From: Deltaproteobacteria bacterium
GTDB lineage: Bacteria > Desulfobacterota > Desulfobacteria > Desulfobacterales > JAFDDL01
NCBI GenBank assembly: GCA_019310865.1
Contig: JAFDDL010000218.1
Span: 1-8,711, forward strand
Length of the DNA stretch: 8,711 nucleotides
Reading direction: 5' to 3'
Each line of letters starts with the position of its first letter. Position 1 is the stretch's first letter. The position numbers and the translations under genes are program-made. Shown here in pieces: positions 2 to 8,711 of this stretch. Under the pieces are notes generated by a model, which was not told the origin of the DNA, did not search any database, and was given only the letters and a program-made list of their open reading frames with translations.

Positions 2-1108
2 GCCTTTGGCCGGAAGATGCCCGTGGTGCAGAAGATTCTTGAAAATGACACCTTCAACGAAGAGTGGAAAAAGATTCAGCTTTTCGAAGAGGACTTTAAA
101 AAGATCGATCTGCCGGTCATGCACGTGACCGGGTGGTTTGACGGCGACCAGGTCGGCGCCATGCATTATTACCTGAACATGATCGAGCATTCCCCCAACG
201 CCCAGGAGCAATATCTGCTCATAGGACCCTGGGACCACCCGCAGACCTTTTTCGGCGGGATACCCTCTTTGGGAGACATGAAATTCACCGAAGACTCGGT
301 AGTTGACAACAACCTTTTGCATCTTCAGTTTTTCGATCATTATCTGAAGGGAACCGCGCCCACCTTCGAGCACCCAAAGGTTCGTATTTACATTACGGGA
401 ATTAACGAATGGCGCGAAAGCGACGCCTTCCCCTTCCCCACCAACGAAGAAAAAAGGCTGTATCTTACAAGTGGCGGCAACGCGGGGGCCAAGGATAGCG
501 ATGGGAAGCTCTCTTGGGAAGCTCCGGGGGAAGAGCCCACGGACCACTTTGTGTTCGACCCCAAAAACCCGGCACCGGGCATGCTCCATAAGCCGGGTGC
601 TCCGTCCGCGCTATGCTTGGGCGTGGATATTAGTGAGCACGTGGAAGCCCGTGACGATGTTCTCACCTACACCAGCGAGGTCCTGGAAGAAACGCTAATC
701 ATCGCAGGGCACGTGGAGGTGGAGCTTTACGCCGCCACGGACGGCTCGGACACCGATTTTGTGGTGTGGCTGACGGATGTGCACCCGGACGGCAAATCTG
801 TGAACCTGGGGCCCGCGAGCTTCGGGATTTTGCGCGGGCGTTTCCGGGAAGGGTATGAAAAAGAAGTCTTGCTCACTCCGGGAAAACCTGAAAAATACCG
901 CATCAAGCTGTGGCACATCGGTCATGCGTTTTTGCCGGGGCATAGAGTCCGCGTCCAAGTGACAAGCGGTGCTTATCCTGATATTGCCCCCAACCAGAAC
1001 ACAGGCAACCCCGTGCCCACAGACACCGAGTGGCGCATCGCCAACCAGACCATCTATCATGACACCTTGCGGCCCTCGGCGGTGATTTTGCCGGTGGTTA
1101 AAGCGTAA
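2..1108 (+). CDS. CocE/NonD family hydrolase (peptidase S15-like), 5' end outside window
   Basis: This is the C-terminal 368 residues of a serine hydrolase of the CocE/X-Pro dipeptidyl-peptidase S15 superfamily, whose members cleave esters or amides. The frame is open to the left edge, so ATG 17 is probably internal. Counting from that Met, the sequence shows the end of the alpha/beta-hydrolase domain. The catalytic Asp lies in VTGWFDG (D42, nt 140-142) and the catalytic His in IGPWDHP (H74, nt 236-238). The nucleophile Ser motif would lie upstream of the window. After the FFDHYLKG segment (about 105-112), the C-terminal jelly-roll domain begins at VRIYITGINEWRE and runs to the end. It includes YLTSGG, DGKLSW, a VHPDGKSVN strand, RGRFREG and the late LPGHRVRVQVTSG strand, and ends ILPVVKA. 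This order and extent are normal for the family. A stop and 27 nt separate it from the next gene, in the same frame. The family call is firm; the substrate is unknown, and secretion cannot be judged without the N-terminus. Confidence 0.93.
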   Translation, partial: AFGRKMPVVQKILENDTFNEEWKKIQLFEEDFKKIDLPVMHVTGWFDGDQVGAMHYYLNMIEHSPNAQEQYLLIGPWDHPQTFFGGIPSLGDMKFTEDSVVDNNLLHLQFFDHYLKGTAPTFEHPKVRIYITGINEWRESDAFPFPTNEEKRLYLTSGGNAGAKDSDGKLSWEAPGEEPTDHFVFDPKNPAPGMLHKPGAPSALCLGVDISEHVEARDDVLTYTSEVLEETLIIAGHVEVELYAATDGSDTDFVVWLTDVHPDGKSVNLGPASFGILRGRFREGYEKEVLLTPGKPEKYRIKLWHIGHAFLPGHRVRVQVTSGAYPDIAPNQNTGNPVPTDTEWRIANQTIYHDTLRPSAVILPVVKA

Positions 1109-1135: not shown

Positions 1136-1615
1136 ATGGCCGACAGATTGATTGTCCTGAAAGGCGGCAAACTCATTGATGGCACGGGAACCGAACCCAT
1201 CGAAGACGCCGATGTGGTTATCCGGGGAAGCAAAATAGAGGCAGTGGGCGCTGCGGGGACAGTCGAATGTCCCCCAGAGGTGCAGGTGCTGGGTGTGTAT
1301 CCGGATGGTCGTGCCTATAATATTCACGATGGCATCATTCGAACCCGTTACCGGGAGGGCATGCTGAAAAACGTGCGCATGACACCCGGTGAGGTGTATG
1401 AAGTGACCATCGATTTGCAGGCAACAGCCAATTATTTTGGGCCGGGTCATTGCATTCGCCTTGAAATATCCAGCAGCAATTTTCCCCGATTTGAACGGAA
1501 CCTGAATACCGGCGGAAACAACTATGACGAAACCGAGTGGATCGTGGCGGAAAATACGGTTTACCATTCGGAAAAACACCCGTCGCATATTTTACTGCCG
1601 ATAAGCAAAGGATAA
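1136..1615 (+). CDS. Chimeric ORF: amidohydrolase N-terminus fused to CocE hydrolase C-terminus
   Basis: This 159-residue ORF has two unrelated halves. Residues 1-52 are the small beta-sandwich start of an amidohydrolase (imidazolonepropionase/D-aminoacylase type), with GGKLIDGTG, DADVVIRG and KIEAVGAAG. The reading should continue to a PGLID-H-x-H metal motif, but it never gets there. From about residue 53 (nt ~1292) it becomes the end of a CocE-type jelly-roll domain: VYPDGRAYNI, RTRYREG, TPGEVYEV, FGPGHCIRLEISSSNFPR, LNTGG, TEWIVAENTVYH and ILLPISKG. This half aligns with the last ~110 residues of the upstream hydrolase, at roughly one third identity by eye. No catalytic residues of either parent remain: no metal-binding His pair, no Ser/Asp/His triad. 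The frame is intact with a good RBS, so a protein may be made, but it most likely behaves as a remnant or as a coupling leader for the aconitase X genes, which start 3 nt after its stop. It may be a pseudogene formed by an in-frame deletion. Assignment of both halves is confident; function is unknown. Confidence 0.85.
   Translation: MADRLIVLKGGKLIDGTGTEPIEDADVVIRGSKIEAVGAAGTVECPPEVQVLGVYPDGRAYNIHDGIIRTRYREGMLKNVRMTPGEVYEVTIDLQATANYFGPGHCIRLEISSSNFPRFERNLNTGGNNYDETEWIVAENTVYHSEKHPSHILLPISKG
1280..1300 (+). other. Fusion junction between amidohydrolase and CocE sequence
   Basis: The predicted protein changes family between V51-L52 and V54-Y55. Upstream residues (VECPPEVQVL) fit the strand just before the PGLID motif of amidohydrolases. 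Downstream residues (VYPDGRAYNI) fit the strand found about 110 residues before the end of CocE proteins. The exact base cannot be fixed because both parents have a hydrophobic strand here. No insertion sequence, target duplication or evident repeat marks the point. Confidence 0.7.
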
Positions 1616-1618
1616 CGC

Positions 1619-2908
1619 ATGCTTCTTACAAAGGCCGAACAAGACATTCTTGACGGAAAACACGGCCGGACGCTTCAAAAGATCATGAAAACCCTGGTAC
1701 TTTACGGTGAAGCGCTTGAGGCCGAAAAGCTTGTGGATATCGAATGGGGCGGACAATTTTCCATCCCCTTTGCCTTACCCGGGGTTGGGCCGCGCCTTGC
1801 GATGCTGAACGAACTGGTGGATGCGGGCCTTAAAACCACACTTCCTTTCACGTTGGATCCGCGGGCGCCGGTTGATTTTAAGGCCCTGGGCACCACGCCG
1901 GAGCAAATCGAATTATTTGGGAAAATGTTGGTGGATCAACCGGCCTATGACGGGGCCATGTTGAAATTGGGCCTCCGGGATAAGGATGCCTATACCTGCA
2001 CACCCTATTTACCGGAGGTGGGCAACATTCCCCCCAAGGGAACCGTGATGGCCTGGTCGGAATCGTCATGTGTTGTTTATGCAAACTCTGTTTTGGCAGC
2101 TCGAACCAATCGCAATGCCGCCATCCTGGATATTTTGTCCAATATCGTTGGGAAAACGCCATTGACCGGTCTTTTGACCGATGAAGGCCGCCGGGCGACA
2201 TGGCGTATCGATGTAAAAACCCGAAAACGGCCAAATCCGCAGCTGCTGGGCGGTGCCATCGGGATGAAAGTGATGGAAGATGTACCCTTCATTACCGGTC
2301 TGAATCGGTTTCTGTCTCCCGAGTTAAATCCGGAAACCATAGATTTTTTAAAAGAGATGGGGGCTGCCTGTGCCGCCATTGGGGCGGTGGGGCTCTACCA
2401 CATTGAAAACATAACCCCGGAAGCGGTGGAATCCGGAAGGGGGCTTTTAACATCCGATTACAAGACCTATACCATCGATGACGAGGTGCTCGATTCCATA
2501 TTTACTGCTTATCCGGTCATGTGGAAAGACAAGACCGCCAAACCGAAAAAATGCATGATCGGCTGTCCCCACTTAAGTCTCAGAGAGCTTTACTGGTGGA
2601 CCGAGGAAATCAGCAACGCCCTGACAGCAGCCGGACAAAATCAGGTGACGCTCGAAACCATCATGTGTGCCGCCCCCCAGGTCCTTGAAAAATTTCAATC
2701 GGATCAAGTGGCATATAACCGCCTCGAGCAAATCGGTGTAAAACTTAGCGATACCTGCATTGAATCCTATATGAACAATCCGTTGTGCGCCCAGGACGCC
2801 GTGGTTACAAATTCAAACAAATTTAGAGCATTTACCCCGGCCAGAATGTTTCTGGACGCCGAGCTCGTTCAAATTATTGTCAGCGGTGACCTGCCGGAAA
2901 GGGATTAA
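1619..2908 (+). CDS. Aconitase X large (catalytic) subunit
   Basis: This 429-residue protein is the catalytic domain of the aconitase X family (AcnX, former DUF521), cytosolic Fe-S dehydratases. Characterised relatives dehydrate cis-3-hydroxy-L-proline (bacteria) or mevalonate 5-phosphate (archaea). Family signatures appear in order: the start MLLTKAEQDILDG with GRTLQKIM; YTCTPY (C127); AWSESSCVVYANSVLAARTNR (145-165); LTDEGRR; GCPHLS (C316); SDTC (C380); and the late VTNSNK (396-401). C127, C316 and C380 are candidates for the cluster or active-site cysteines of the family; which of them bind iron is inferred from conservation. Length is normal for the split form. ATG 1619 follows the stop of the chimeric ORF by 3 nt, and its RBS AAAGGA (1607-1612) lies inside that ORF, so translation is probably coupled. 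The small subunit starts one base after this gene's stop. The substrate is not settled: no pyrroline-2-carboxylate reductase or proline racemase-like gene is next to it, so hydroxyproline use is only a possibility. Confidence 0.93.
   Translation: MLLTKAEQDILDGKHGRTLQKIMKTLVLYGEALEAEKLVDIEWGGQFSIPFALPGVGPRLAMLNELVDAGLKTTLPFTLDPRAPVDFKALGTTPEQIELFGKMLVDQPAYDGAMLKLGLRDKDAYTCTPYLPEVGNIPPKGTVMAWSESSCVVYANSVLAARTNRNAAILDILSNIVGKTPLTGLLTDEGRRATWRIDVKTRKRPNPQLLGGAIGMKVMEDVPFITGLNRFLSPELNPETIDFLKEMGAACAAIGAVGLYHIENITPEAVESGRGLLTSDYKTYTIDDEVLDSIFTAYPVMWKDKTAKPKKCMIGCPHLSLRELYWWTEEISNALTAAGQNQVTLETIMCAAPQVLEKFQSDQVAYNRLEQIGVKLSDTCIESYMNNPLCAQDAVVTNSNKFRAFTPARMFLDAELVQIIVSGDLPERD
2896..2904 (+). promoter_or_regulatory. 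Ribosome binding site choosing the small-subunit start
   Basis: GGAAAGGGA lies 5 nt upstream of ATG 2910. The frame is also open upstream to an ATG at 2877, but that start has no such site and would add 11 residues overlapping the large subunit. ATG 2910 gives the usual family N-terminus (MKQFKGRAILP). Confidence 0.75.
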
Positions 2909-5082: not shown

Positions 5083-6789
5083 ATGTATGATGTGTTGATT
5101 AAAAAAGGAAACCTCGCCGACGGAAGCGGGAAAGCATGCCATGTTGCGGACATCGCGGTCAAAGACGAAACCATTGTAGCCATTGGTTCGGATCTGCAAG
5201 GGGATGCCCAAAAGATAATCGATGCCGATGGGCTGATTGTGTCACCGGGGTTTATCGATAATCACAGTCATAGTGACTTCGGGATCGTGGGGAAATATCG
5301 ATTCGACAACATGGTCGAACAGGGAATCACGACAGAAGTTGTGGGACAGTGCGGTGCGACACTCGCGCCGGCGACATACGAAATCGTGAAACAATCAGCC
5401 CAAGAATTCGGGTTTACCGAGGAAGACGTAAAATTCTATTCGGAAAAACTGGGGACGTTCGAAGACTATTTGACATATCTCGACAGCATCGATCTTGGAG
5501 ATAACTGGGCTGTTTTCGTCGGACACGCAACTATCCGCGAATACGTGCTTGGATTTGAAAACAGACCCCCGTCGCCCAAAGAACTGGAGCAGATGAAGGA
5601 CCTGGTTCGACAGGCCATGGAAGCCGGCGCGCTGGGTGTTTCCGCAGGGCTGATTTATCCGCCAGGCGCTTTTGCAAATACGGATGAACTGGTAGCGCTT
5701 TTGAAAGTGGCCGCAGAATACGGCGGAAGTTACACCACGCATATGAGAAGCGAGGGGGGCACGATCCTTGAATCCATCGAAGAAGCTCTCGAGATTGGTG
5801 AGCGGGCTGGTGTGCCGGTGAACATTTCTCACCTTAAAGTTGGCGGTAAAGATAACTGGCATAAGTTGGATGCTGTTTTTGAACTGATCGAAAATGCGCA
5901 GAGCAAGGGCATGAAAGTGCGTGCCGACATGTACCCATACCTTGCGGGATCCACCGCATTAATGGCGGCACTTCCAAATAAGTTTGCAGCTGTGGGGCCT
6001 GAAAAGGCCGTTGAAAATTTGAAAAACCGTGATTTCAGAAAAGAGGTGTGGCAGGAGCTTCAAACCGGAACCGGTTTTGAAAATCTGATTGAATATTGTG
6101 GTTTTGAAGGGATTATGGTGGTGACGGCATCGGTTACCAAGGATCTGATTGGCCGGTATGGTGCGGACATCGCCGAGGAAAGAAAATCGGATCCCTTCGA
6201 TGTCTTCTGCGATATTATCGTTGAGAACAATGGGCAAACCTTTGCCGCATACTTCATGCGCCAAGAGGAACAGGTTACCAAGCAATTTGCACGGCCCTAT
6301 GTAATGGGCGGTACGGACGGCGGTATCGAATCGTCATCTTTCCCCATATTCCACCCCAGACACATCGGCACCTTTCCCCAGCAAATTGTCAGCATCGAGG
6401 AAGCAGTGCATAAATTTTCGTTTCTGCCGGCGGACATGGCCGGGCTGAAAACCAAAGGGCTCATCAAGGAAGGCTACGACGCAGACATCACCATATTTGA
6501 TCTGGACACCCTGACGGACCATGCGGATTATGTCAACCCTGGGGCAAAAAATGAAGGCATGAAATATGTCGTCATAAACGGCGTGATTGCTGTTGAGGAC
6601 GATCGCTTTACCGGAAGGCATGCCGGGAAAGTGCTCAGAACTGATAGCAACCCCTCCGGGCTTTACCGGAGATCAAAAGAGTTGAAAGGAACAAGAGATG
6701 AAAATACCGAAACTTATCGTACAGGTGGCCATTACCGGATCAGATACAACCCCGTCACAAAGTCCCTATATTCCCATTACCACAGATGA
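5083..6789 (+). CDS. N-acyl-D-amino-acid deacylase family amidohydrolase, with abnormal C-terminal extension
   Basis: This is a metal-dependent amidohydrolase of the D-aminoacylase group, which hydrolyses N-acyl-D-amino acids (relatives also act on N-acyl-D-glutamate/aspartate, dihydropyrimidine-like or dipeptide substrates). The start MYDVLIKKGNLADGSG is the usual small beta domain. The barrel carries every metal ligand expected: H61 and H63 (HSHSD), C90 (GQCG), H220 (TTHMRSE), H250 (ISHLK) and D412 (GGTDGG). The sequence HPRHIGTFP (424-432) and a late GYDADITIFD strand complete the fold. It should be cytosolic; no signal peptide is seen. RBS GGAG (5071-5074) is 8 nt before ATG 5083. The family normally ends near the GKVLR found at 515-519, but this frame runs on for 49 residues to 6789 and overlaps the next gene by 92 nt. 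Two adjacent stops (TGA 6642, TAG 6645) lie in another frame exactly at the expected end, so a 1-nt deletion or sequencing error near 6637-6641 is likely. The core enzyme should be intact; the tail is probably not native. Confidence 0.88.
   Translation: MYDVLIKKGNLADGSGKACHVADIAVKDETIVAIGSDLQGDAQKIIDADGLIVSPGFIDNHSHSDFGIVGKYRFDNMVEQGITTEVVGQCGATLAPATYEIVKQSAQEFGFTEEDVKFYSEKLGTFEDYLTYLDSIDLGDNWAVFVGHATIREYVLGFENRPPSPKELEQMKDLVRQAMEAGALGVSAGLIYPPGAFANTDELVALLKVAAEYGGSYTTHMRSEGGTILESIEEALEIGERAGVPVNISHLKVGGKDNWHKLDAVFELIENAQSKGMKVRADMYPYLAGSTALMAALPNKFAAVGPEKAVENLKNRDFRKEVWQELQTGTGFENLIEYCGFEGIMVVTASVTKDLIGRYGADIAEERKSDPFDVFCDIIVENNGQTFAAYFMRQEEQVTKQFARPYVMGGTDGGIESSSFPIFHPRHIGTFPQQIVSIEEAVHKFSFLPADMAGLKTKGLIKEGYDADITIFDLDTLTDHADYVNPGAKNEGMKYVVINGVIAVEDDRFTGRHAGKVLRTDSNPSGLYRRSKELKGTRDENTETYRTGGHYRIRYNPVTKSLYSHYHR
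6654..6671 (+). repeat. Small inverted repeat (6-bp stem, 6-nt loop)
   Basis: CTCCGG (6654-6659) and CCGGAG (6666-6671) are perfect inverted arms around a GCTTTA loop. They sit just after the out-of-frame tandem stops at 6642-6647 and before the RBS of the next gene. This is where an intergenic hairpin would be expected if the upstream gene really ended at 6644. There is no T-tract, so it is not a typical terminator; an RNA-stability or attenuating role is possible. Confidence 0.45.
6685..6690 (+). promoter_or_regulatory. Ribosome binding site of the BKACE gene
   Basis: AAAGGA lies 7 nt upstream of ATG 6698. It supports that start, even though it falls inside the extended reading frame of the upstream amidohydrolase. 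Confidence 0.7.
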
Positions 6790-7525
6790 AATTGTCGAAG
6801 AATGTTACCGGTGTAGGCAAGCCGGCGCATCGATGGTCCATCTGCATATACGAGATCCAAAAGACGGCAAACCGGTGGGTCGAATGGATCTGTGGGAAGA
6901 AACCCTGAAAAGAGTCAAACGCAAATGCGACGACCTCATTATCGGTGTCACCACCGGTGGTTTCTATGGTGCAACCATTGATGACCGTCTGGATGTGATT
7001 CGAAACTTCGAACCGGAAATCGCCTCTTTTACCCCGGAAAGTGTCACGATCTGTCACACGCACATTATTCCCAGGGTTCAGGAGTGGAAATACGATTGGG
7101 AAAAAGAATACTTGGAAAGTACCGCCTCGGCTACATTTTCAAATACCTGGGAGGAAATAGAGCTTTTCGCCAAGACCATGCGGGAGCACGGCACCAAACC
7201 GGAGTGCGAATTTTTCGGTTCCAGTGGTCTATACAATACACGAGAGCTTTGGCGTTCGGGTATCCTTGAAGCGCCCTTGGCGATTCAATGCGTCTTTGGC
7301 GCCAGGGGGGGGACCGGCGCATACCCGTCCGAGGTGGTGCATTTTCAGACAGAGGCCGTCAGGCATCTCGGGCCGGACACCTTCAACTGGTCGGTTATCG
7401 GTGTTGGCTATCCCCGCCAGTACACCCTGGGCGCTCTGGCCATCTCCATGATGGGACATGTGCGCGTCGGCATGGAGGACAACATCTACGTGAGACTTAA
7501 GGGCAGTGACAAAGTAAATTATTAG
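6698..7525 (+). CDS. Beta-keto acid cleavage enzyme (BKACE, DUF849; Kce-like), short C-terminus
   Basis: This 275-residue zinc enzyme belongs to the family founded by 3-keto-5-aminohexanoate cleavage enzyme (Kce). Members react a beta-keto acid with acetyl-CoA to give acetoacetate and a new acyl-CoA. The TIM-barrel start VQVAITGSDTTPSQSP is followed by IPITTDEIVEE, the zinc motif VHLHIRD (H48, H50), a VTTGG loop, a late GVGYPRQYTLG and GHVRVGMEDNIY. In that last segment E260 is the third zinc ligand, D261 the following conserved acid, and R256 matches a conserved catalytic arginine of Kce. The residue equivalent to Kce Glu14 is D16 here, which hints at a substrate other than 3-keto-5-aminohexanoate. 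Only 15 residues follow E260, against about 46 in Kce, so the usual last helix is missing. The protein reaches normal total length only because of extra residues near 129-145. Start ATG 6698 is backed by AAAGGA at 6685. It is likely cytosolic and co-transcribed with the DUF4438 gene. Confidence 0.88.
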   Translation: MKIPKLIVQVAITGSDTTPSQSPYIPITTDEIVEECYRCRQAGASMVHLHIRDPKDGKPVGRMDLWEETLKRVKRKCDDLIIGVTTGGFYGATIDDRLDVIRNFEPEIASFTPESVTICHTHIIPRVQEWKYDWEKEYLESTASATFSNTWEEIELFAKTMREHGTKPECEFFGSSGLYNTRELWRSGILEAPLAIQCVFGARGGTGAYPSEVVHFQTEAVRHLGPDTFNWSVIGVGYPRQYTLGALAISMMGHVRVGMEDNIYVRLKGSDKVNY

Positions 7526-8478: not shown

Positions 8479-8506
8479 TCTACAAAGATTACCGATAATT
8501 GAAAAC

Positions 8507-8516: not shown

Positions 8517-8711
8517 ATGACTACCAATAACAACACGCAACCACCCGCATTCGATCAGCCCAAAGCGCGCATCTACGTAACCGGCAGCAATGAATGGCGC
8601 GAGTATGACACCTATCCACCCCCGGCCATGGCGGAAAAATGGCTCTACCTGCACAGCCGCGGCAACGCCAACACCTTAAGCGGTGACGGCCGCCTCTCTT
8701 GGAAAAAGCCG
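8517..8711 (+). CDS. Stand-alone CocE-type C-terminal (jelly-roll) domain, 3' end outside window
   Basis: The visible 65 residues begin with a short polar leader (MTTNNNTQPPAF) and then match the start of the C-terminal domain of CocE/X-Pro dipeptidyl-peptidase proteins: PKARIYVTGSNEWREYDTYP, WLYLHSRGNAN and SGDGRLSW. The same blocks appear in the hydrolase at the left edge (VRIYITGINEWRESD, LYLTSGGNA, SDGKLSW), where they follow a full catalytic domain. Here the alpha/beta-hydrolase domain with its Asp and His is absent, and an in-frame stop at 8496 rules out an upstream extension. A clean RBS argues that the short form is translated. It may be a separately encoded binding domain, a decayed gene, or one half of a rearranged CocE gene; the right-hand end would decide. 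No catalysis is expected from what is visible. Confidence 0.85.
   Translation, partial: MTTNNNTQPPAFDQPKARIYVTGSNEWREYDTYPPPAMAEKWLYLHSRGNANTLSGDGRLSWKKP

Follow-up and report, generated by a model that had tools for sequence, protein, structure and literature searches.

Introduction

Deletions that fuse neighboring genes have been described in Pseudomonas fluorescens, where eight such events are reported at each of two loci, stated to be in frame, along with one further fusion (PMC4395868). There, a deletion links a gene to one lying downstream, the diguanylate cyclase domain of the latter is retained, and activation of that domain was selected (PMC4395868). The event proposed here for an open reading frame (ORF) at positions 1136–1615 would be of the same kind, but the downstream catalytic domain has been lost and nothing shows selection. 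The literature searched for fusions between CocE and amidohydrolase genes yielded nothing on point.

Two enzyme families are concerned. The first 52 residues encoded by ORF 1136–1615 resemble the N-terminal stretch of the amidohydrolase superfamily (PF01979/PF07969), to which molinate hydrolase (4wgx) and D-aminoacylase (1m7j) belong. Members of that superfamily contain a barrel with an H-x-H motif and other metal ligands; unlike them, ORF 1136–1615 lacks the whole barrel. The remainder of the protein aligns without gaps to a 74-member profile of the CocE/NonD hydrolases (TIGR00976; PF02129 plus PF08530; cocaine esterase, 1ju3), whose S15 catalytic domain and first half of PepX_C have no counterpart in ORF 1136–1615. 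The catalytic triad of CocE is presumably located in the S15 alpha/beta-hydrolase domain, outside the part represented here, which starts at cocaine esterase residue 468.

Results and Discussion

ORF 1136–1615 Is a Two-Family Chimera in a Same-Strand Gene Array

The window, the whole stretch of 8,711 nucleotides that was analyzed, carries a series of likely genes that are all on the plus strand and separated by short gaps. At its 5′ edge the boundary truncates a CocE/NonD hydrolase gene (2–1108, plus strand), which represents a second, different CocE copy. ORF 1136–1615 (plus strand, 159 amino acids) runs from ATG to TAA with an AAAGGA motif 8 nucleotides upstream of its ATG; the next ATG, at 1619, begins the gene immediately 3′, a full-length large part of aconitase X (1619–2908, plus strand). 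The other likely genes encode the small part of aconitase X, a glyoxalase-fold protein, an MFS transporter, a D-aminoacylase-like protein, a BKACE enzyme, a DUF4438 protein, and the start of a CocE fragment. A scan of ten window proteins revealed no domain of a transposase or another mobile element, none of the repeats of at least 16 nucleotides listed for the window touches ORF 1136–1615, and a scan of the window for tRNA-type and other RNAs (Aragorn; Rfam at gathering threshold) returned no match.

Profile comparisons confirmed that ORF 1136–1615 is a chimera of two families, with the amidohydrolase and CocE matches meeting without a gap at residues 49–52 and the family switch falling at residues 52–54. 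The head (residues 1–52, profile match 3–52; 1136–1291, plus strand) is an amidohydrolase N-terminal stretch that ends before the H-x-H metal motif. A junction zone of two residues (G-V, residues 53–54; 1292–1297, plus strand) leads into the tail (1295–1612, plus strand), which corresponds to the C-terminal 106 residues of a CocE/NonD hydrolase, with the second half of PepX_C. Because the head stops short of the H.H motif and the tail is half a PepX_C domain, neither active site should remain. These results bear out a first-pass annotation of the window, which had placed the switch near residue 53, noted the loss of both catalytic sites next to an intact start signal, frame, and stop, and remarked on the absence of mobile elements nearby. 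Searching the two parts separately, as that annotation had proposed, leads from the head to amidohydrolases and from the tail to CocE/NonD hydrolases.

The Head Resembles the Start of an Amidohydrolase

A profile built from 54 amidohydrolase ORFs matches residues 3–52 of the full ORF with 62.1 bits and the head alone with 65.4 bits, scores that are partly circular since the ORFs were themselves picked by similarity to the head. Among 500 shuffled heads, 319 were scored by this profile, the best at 4.1 and none near the real head. Support that is independent of the profile comes from structural databases and from genomic ORFs. In a PDB search up to E = 10, nine of ten matches to the head were chains of molinate hydrolase, D-aminoacylase, N-acyl-D-glutamate deacylase, or a PpOngB-type deacetylase, the last of which probably also belongs to the amidohydrolases; molinate hydrolase ranked best (E = 0.0022), followed by D-aminoacylases and related enzymes, and all nine align near the N-terminus of the respective chain. 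An H.H motif is present at residues 51–80, just past the matched part, in 57 of 59 head-matched genomic ORFs, which were taken from 60 fetched loci (tblastn match in 59 of 60).

Head matches at E ≤ 0.01 occur in 104 of 301 genomes from the phylum of an Anaerolineae metagenome-assembled genome (MAG) and in 193 of 297 from the phylum of an Aminicenantes MAG. Two results weigh against this assignment. A padded search with the head in a set of 5.8 billion proteins produced 25 candidates, none at E ≤ 10, so no close relative is known. Against curated Pfam and NCBIfam models the head gave sub-threshold matches only; no curated amidohydrolase profile passed its cut-off, and the H-x-H motif with the metal-binding barrel is absent, the ORF leaving the family at residue 52.

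The Tail Is an Undecayed Half of PepX_C

The CocE profile, built from 74 ORFs, matches residues 49–158 of ORF 1136–1615 with 188.4 bits; against the head alone it reported no match. Residues 50–152 align to positions 115–216 of 217 of PF08530 (PepX_C; E = 3.1e-26), and residues 51–158 align to positions 447–549 of 550 of TIGR00976, passing its cut-off (98.2 versus 66.3 bits). Solved structures of cocaine esterase are matched by the last 106 residues at positions 468–573. No match to PF02129, the S15 hydrolase domain, was found in ORF 1136–1615, and PepX_C is incomplete; the start at cocaine esterase residue 468 and the partial PF08530 match indicate that the protein retains only the second half of PepX_C and none of the hydrolase domain. 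The tail shows no sign of decay: all 33 near-invariant columns are kept (a single residue in at least 95% of the other 119 listed proteins, counting columns with at least 60 of them present), as would be expected if the fusion event is young.

Structure prediction was carried out with AlphaFold2 for ORF 1136–1615, aligned with 39 homologues, and for one of these homologues, P0002, which contains nearly the whole of PepX_C, as a control with the identical 39 rows. The chimera reached a mean pLDDT of 52.8 and a pTM of 0.46, compared with 79.4 and 0.80 for P0002, and the means for conserved tail blocks were 43–70 (from residue 51) versus 76–95 (from residue 131 in P0002). Of the 13 strands in the P0002 model, seven (those up to residue 139) precede the cut or fall on it. 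The chimera is thus predicted to fold poorly and its relative with a complete PepX_C to fold well, which, being a prediction from an alignment that has no real depth over the head, is moderate evidence only.

The Fusion Is Found Once, against a Background of Other CocE-Tail Joins

In a collection of about 5.8 billion proteins, ORF 1136–1615 forms a cluster with one member from one contig. The head does not occur in the 119 other proteins among the best 120 of 1465 matches to the ORF, which provides no second copy of the fusion that the first-pass annotation had suggested seeking in relatives; matches below the best 120 rank under 155 bits, where a fusion copy is not expected. The best match after the query itself is P0002 (210 bits), an ordinary CocE part, with the junction region reading TAKLVDVYPDGRAYN in P0002 compared with EVQVLGVYPDGRAYN in ORF 1136–1615. 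Neither the head nor aconitase X was detected at the best 80 of the 119 matched CocE loci in the genome collection (tblastn, E ≤ 1e-4).

A search for the intact parents found no CocE gene in 20 regions around head-matched amidohydrolases, and an amidohydrolase ORF of any kind is present at 5 of the 80 CocE loci; adjacency of the two parents is therefore not general. One locus, from a Steroidobacter MAG (L017), does contain two amidohydrolase frames with a CocE frame immediately downstream in the same orientation, these frames being read from stop to stop with gene starts that are not fixed.

The neighboring aconitase X gene provided another route to relatives. The nearest large part is 76% identical among the matches listed (best 120 of 8000 scored candidates), and the named matches listed come from Acidobacteriota (68 and 66%), Desulfatiglandales (66%), and Anaerolineae (60 and 59%). 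In the phylum of an Acidobacteria MAG, the large part was found in 31 of 297 genomes (best 47%), and neither CocE nor the head is present at the two best loci, each shorter than 4 kb. Among 400 genomes from the phylum of an Anaerolineae MAG, none matched at the strict cut-off of E ≤ 1e-100, and with no positive genome in the search this empty result carries no weight. An intact amidohydrolase and CocE arrangement before aconitase X was not found in the relatives searched.

Chimeras that involve a CocE tail are not rare in the protein set searched, contrary to the initial expectation that precise in-frame chimeras are uncommon. Nine of the 119 other CocE-tail proteins (CocE profile; best 120 of 1465 matches) begin with a stretch that is not CocE or jump internally along the profile: in seven the CocE match begins after residue 25 (P0003, P0040, P0048, P0055, P0071, P0097, and P0099), and in two there is an internal in-frame jump (profile position 122 to 521 in P0096 and 119 to 474 in P0010). 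The longest contigs of these nine proteins measure 835–2089 bases in seven cases, 6.4 kb in one, and 61 kb in one (P0096). The start of P0003 weakly matches a 23S rRNA intervening protein, below the curated cut-off, and residues 9–42 of P0048 give a weak, sub-threshold match to arginine repressor. P0048 changes family at GIEVT, a stretch possibly common to arginine repressor and CocE, which we take to be typical of a false join; the starts of P0055 and P0099 may simply be upstream sequence misread as part of the protein. The nine proteins reveal a visible background of joins, part of which is probably artefact. More generally, ORF 1136–1615 serves as a caution that a short, intact, family-switching ORF in a metagenome contig can be the scar left by a deletion or a join introduced in assembly.

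Deletion Is the Best-Supported Origin

The sequence comparisons favor, with a probability of roughly two in three, a model in which ORF 1136–1615 is the recent relic of one illegitimate in-frame deletion in a same-strand gene array. In that array, the aconitase X genes would have been directly preceded by an amidohydrolase gene and then a CocE gene. The deletion would have begun near codon 53 of the amidohydrolase and ended near position 520 of the 627 in the CocE model, the frame would have been kept by chance, and the start signal of the amidohydrolase would now serve a short protein that lacks catalytic residues. We infer that the parents were neighbors, that the event was a deletion and recent, and that the product is functionless. 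A deletion relic, one of two readings offered by the first-pass annotation, remains the best-supported interpretation, although no relative with intact parents was found.

The main rival to a deletion is an assembly or library artefact, in which two unrelated fragments were linked in silico or within a chimeric molecule and the ORF does not exist in any cell. Presence on one contig only, with no relative that has the fusion among the matches listed, would equally be given by an artefact, and the undecayed tail fits a join as well. The background described above points the same way, with 9 of 119 other listed CocE-tail proteins odd, seven of these nine having a longest contig of 835–2089 bases, and P0048 resembling a false join at GIEVT; repeated joins could also explain the three other genes on the contig that look shortened (see below). 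Nevertheless, we regard an artefact as unlikely, if deserving of serious consideration. The contig reads as a single array of genes on one strand, in which the large part of aconitase X is intact; the frame, start signal, and stop of the ORF are all kept; and inspection by eye of the junction DNA of 11 CocE and 4 amidohydrolase loci, which are homologues rather than the parents, revealed no long shared stretch.

Selection for a working small protein would account for the intact ORF and start signal and for the conserved tail residues, since an undecayed tail is also compatible with a protein under selection. Amidohydrolase strands would then replace the missing half of PepX_C, and the product would have a binding or scaffold role. 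The predicted fold argues against this proposal, given the low scores of the chimera relative to P0002 and the position of 7 of the 13 P0002 strands before or at the cut, as does the lack of relatives among the matches listed. We consider it very improbable, and the new small beta-sandwich protein that the first-pass annotation had offered as its second reading finds no support in half a PepX_C domain that is predicted to fold poorly next to a relative with the complete domain. Even more remote is a single-family protein whose head is a diverged CocE stretch. Many tblastn matches do reach back to query residue 19 or further; however, the CocE profile begins at residue 49 and leaves the head alone unmatched, whereas the amidohydrolase match of 62.1 bits ends at residue 52. 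On the basis of these separate profile matches, a single-family origin was rejected.

Other Genes in the Window Appear Shortened in Frame

Besides ORF 1136–1615, three apparent in-frame losses were observed on the same 8.7 kb. At 7478–7525, within the BKACE gene, 37 residues are apparently gone in frame just before the conserved C-terminal end, which reads DNIY-VRLKGSDKVNY in the window. Two genome relatives were compared: L079 has 37 more residues before TKGADKVNF, and the same 37 residues are present in L051. Likewise, the five best PDB relatives (310–334 residues) continue for 46 or 47 residues past the match, compared with 9 or 10 in the window protein; a BKACE family search in two genomes returned no match. 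At 6367–6390, the D-aminoacylase-like protein lacks 9 residues after GTFP relative to 1m7j, L114, and L005. Finally, a CocE fragment at 8517–8711, cut by the window end, has GGAGG before its ATG (with an alternative start at 8499), begins with MTTNNNT, and continues almost straight into PepX_C without a hydrolase domain. The aconitase X large part shows no gap of the kind seen in these neighboring genes.

Under a neutral one-third rule, the chance that four of four losses keep the frame is about 1 in 81, a figure that applies to a sample of four in which shortening was judged against genes of other organisms and an assembly fault is possible. Should these losses prove real, the contig would offer a natural example of operon genes that become smaller while keeping their frames. 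A speculative and improbable extension is that the contig comes from an uncultured lineage in which catabolic arrays are reduced by deletions that preserve the frame, perhaps because frame-breaking deletions would stop translation and transcription of the downstream genes. The frame of the D-aminoacylase-like protein also continues beyond its family match, which ends at residue 519 of 568, and overlaps the start of the BKACE gene by 92 bases (6698–6789).
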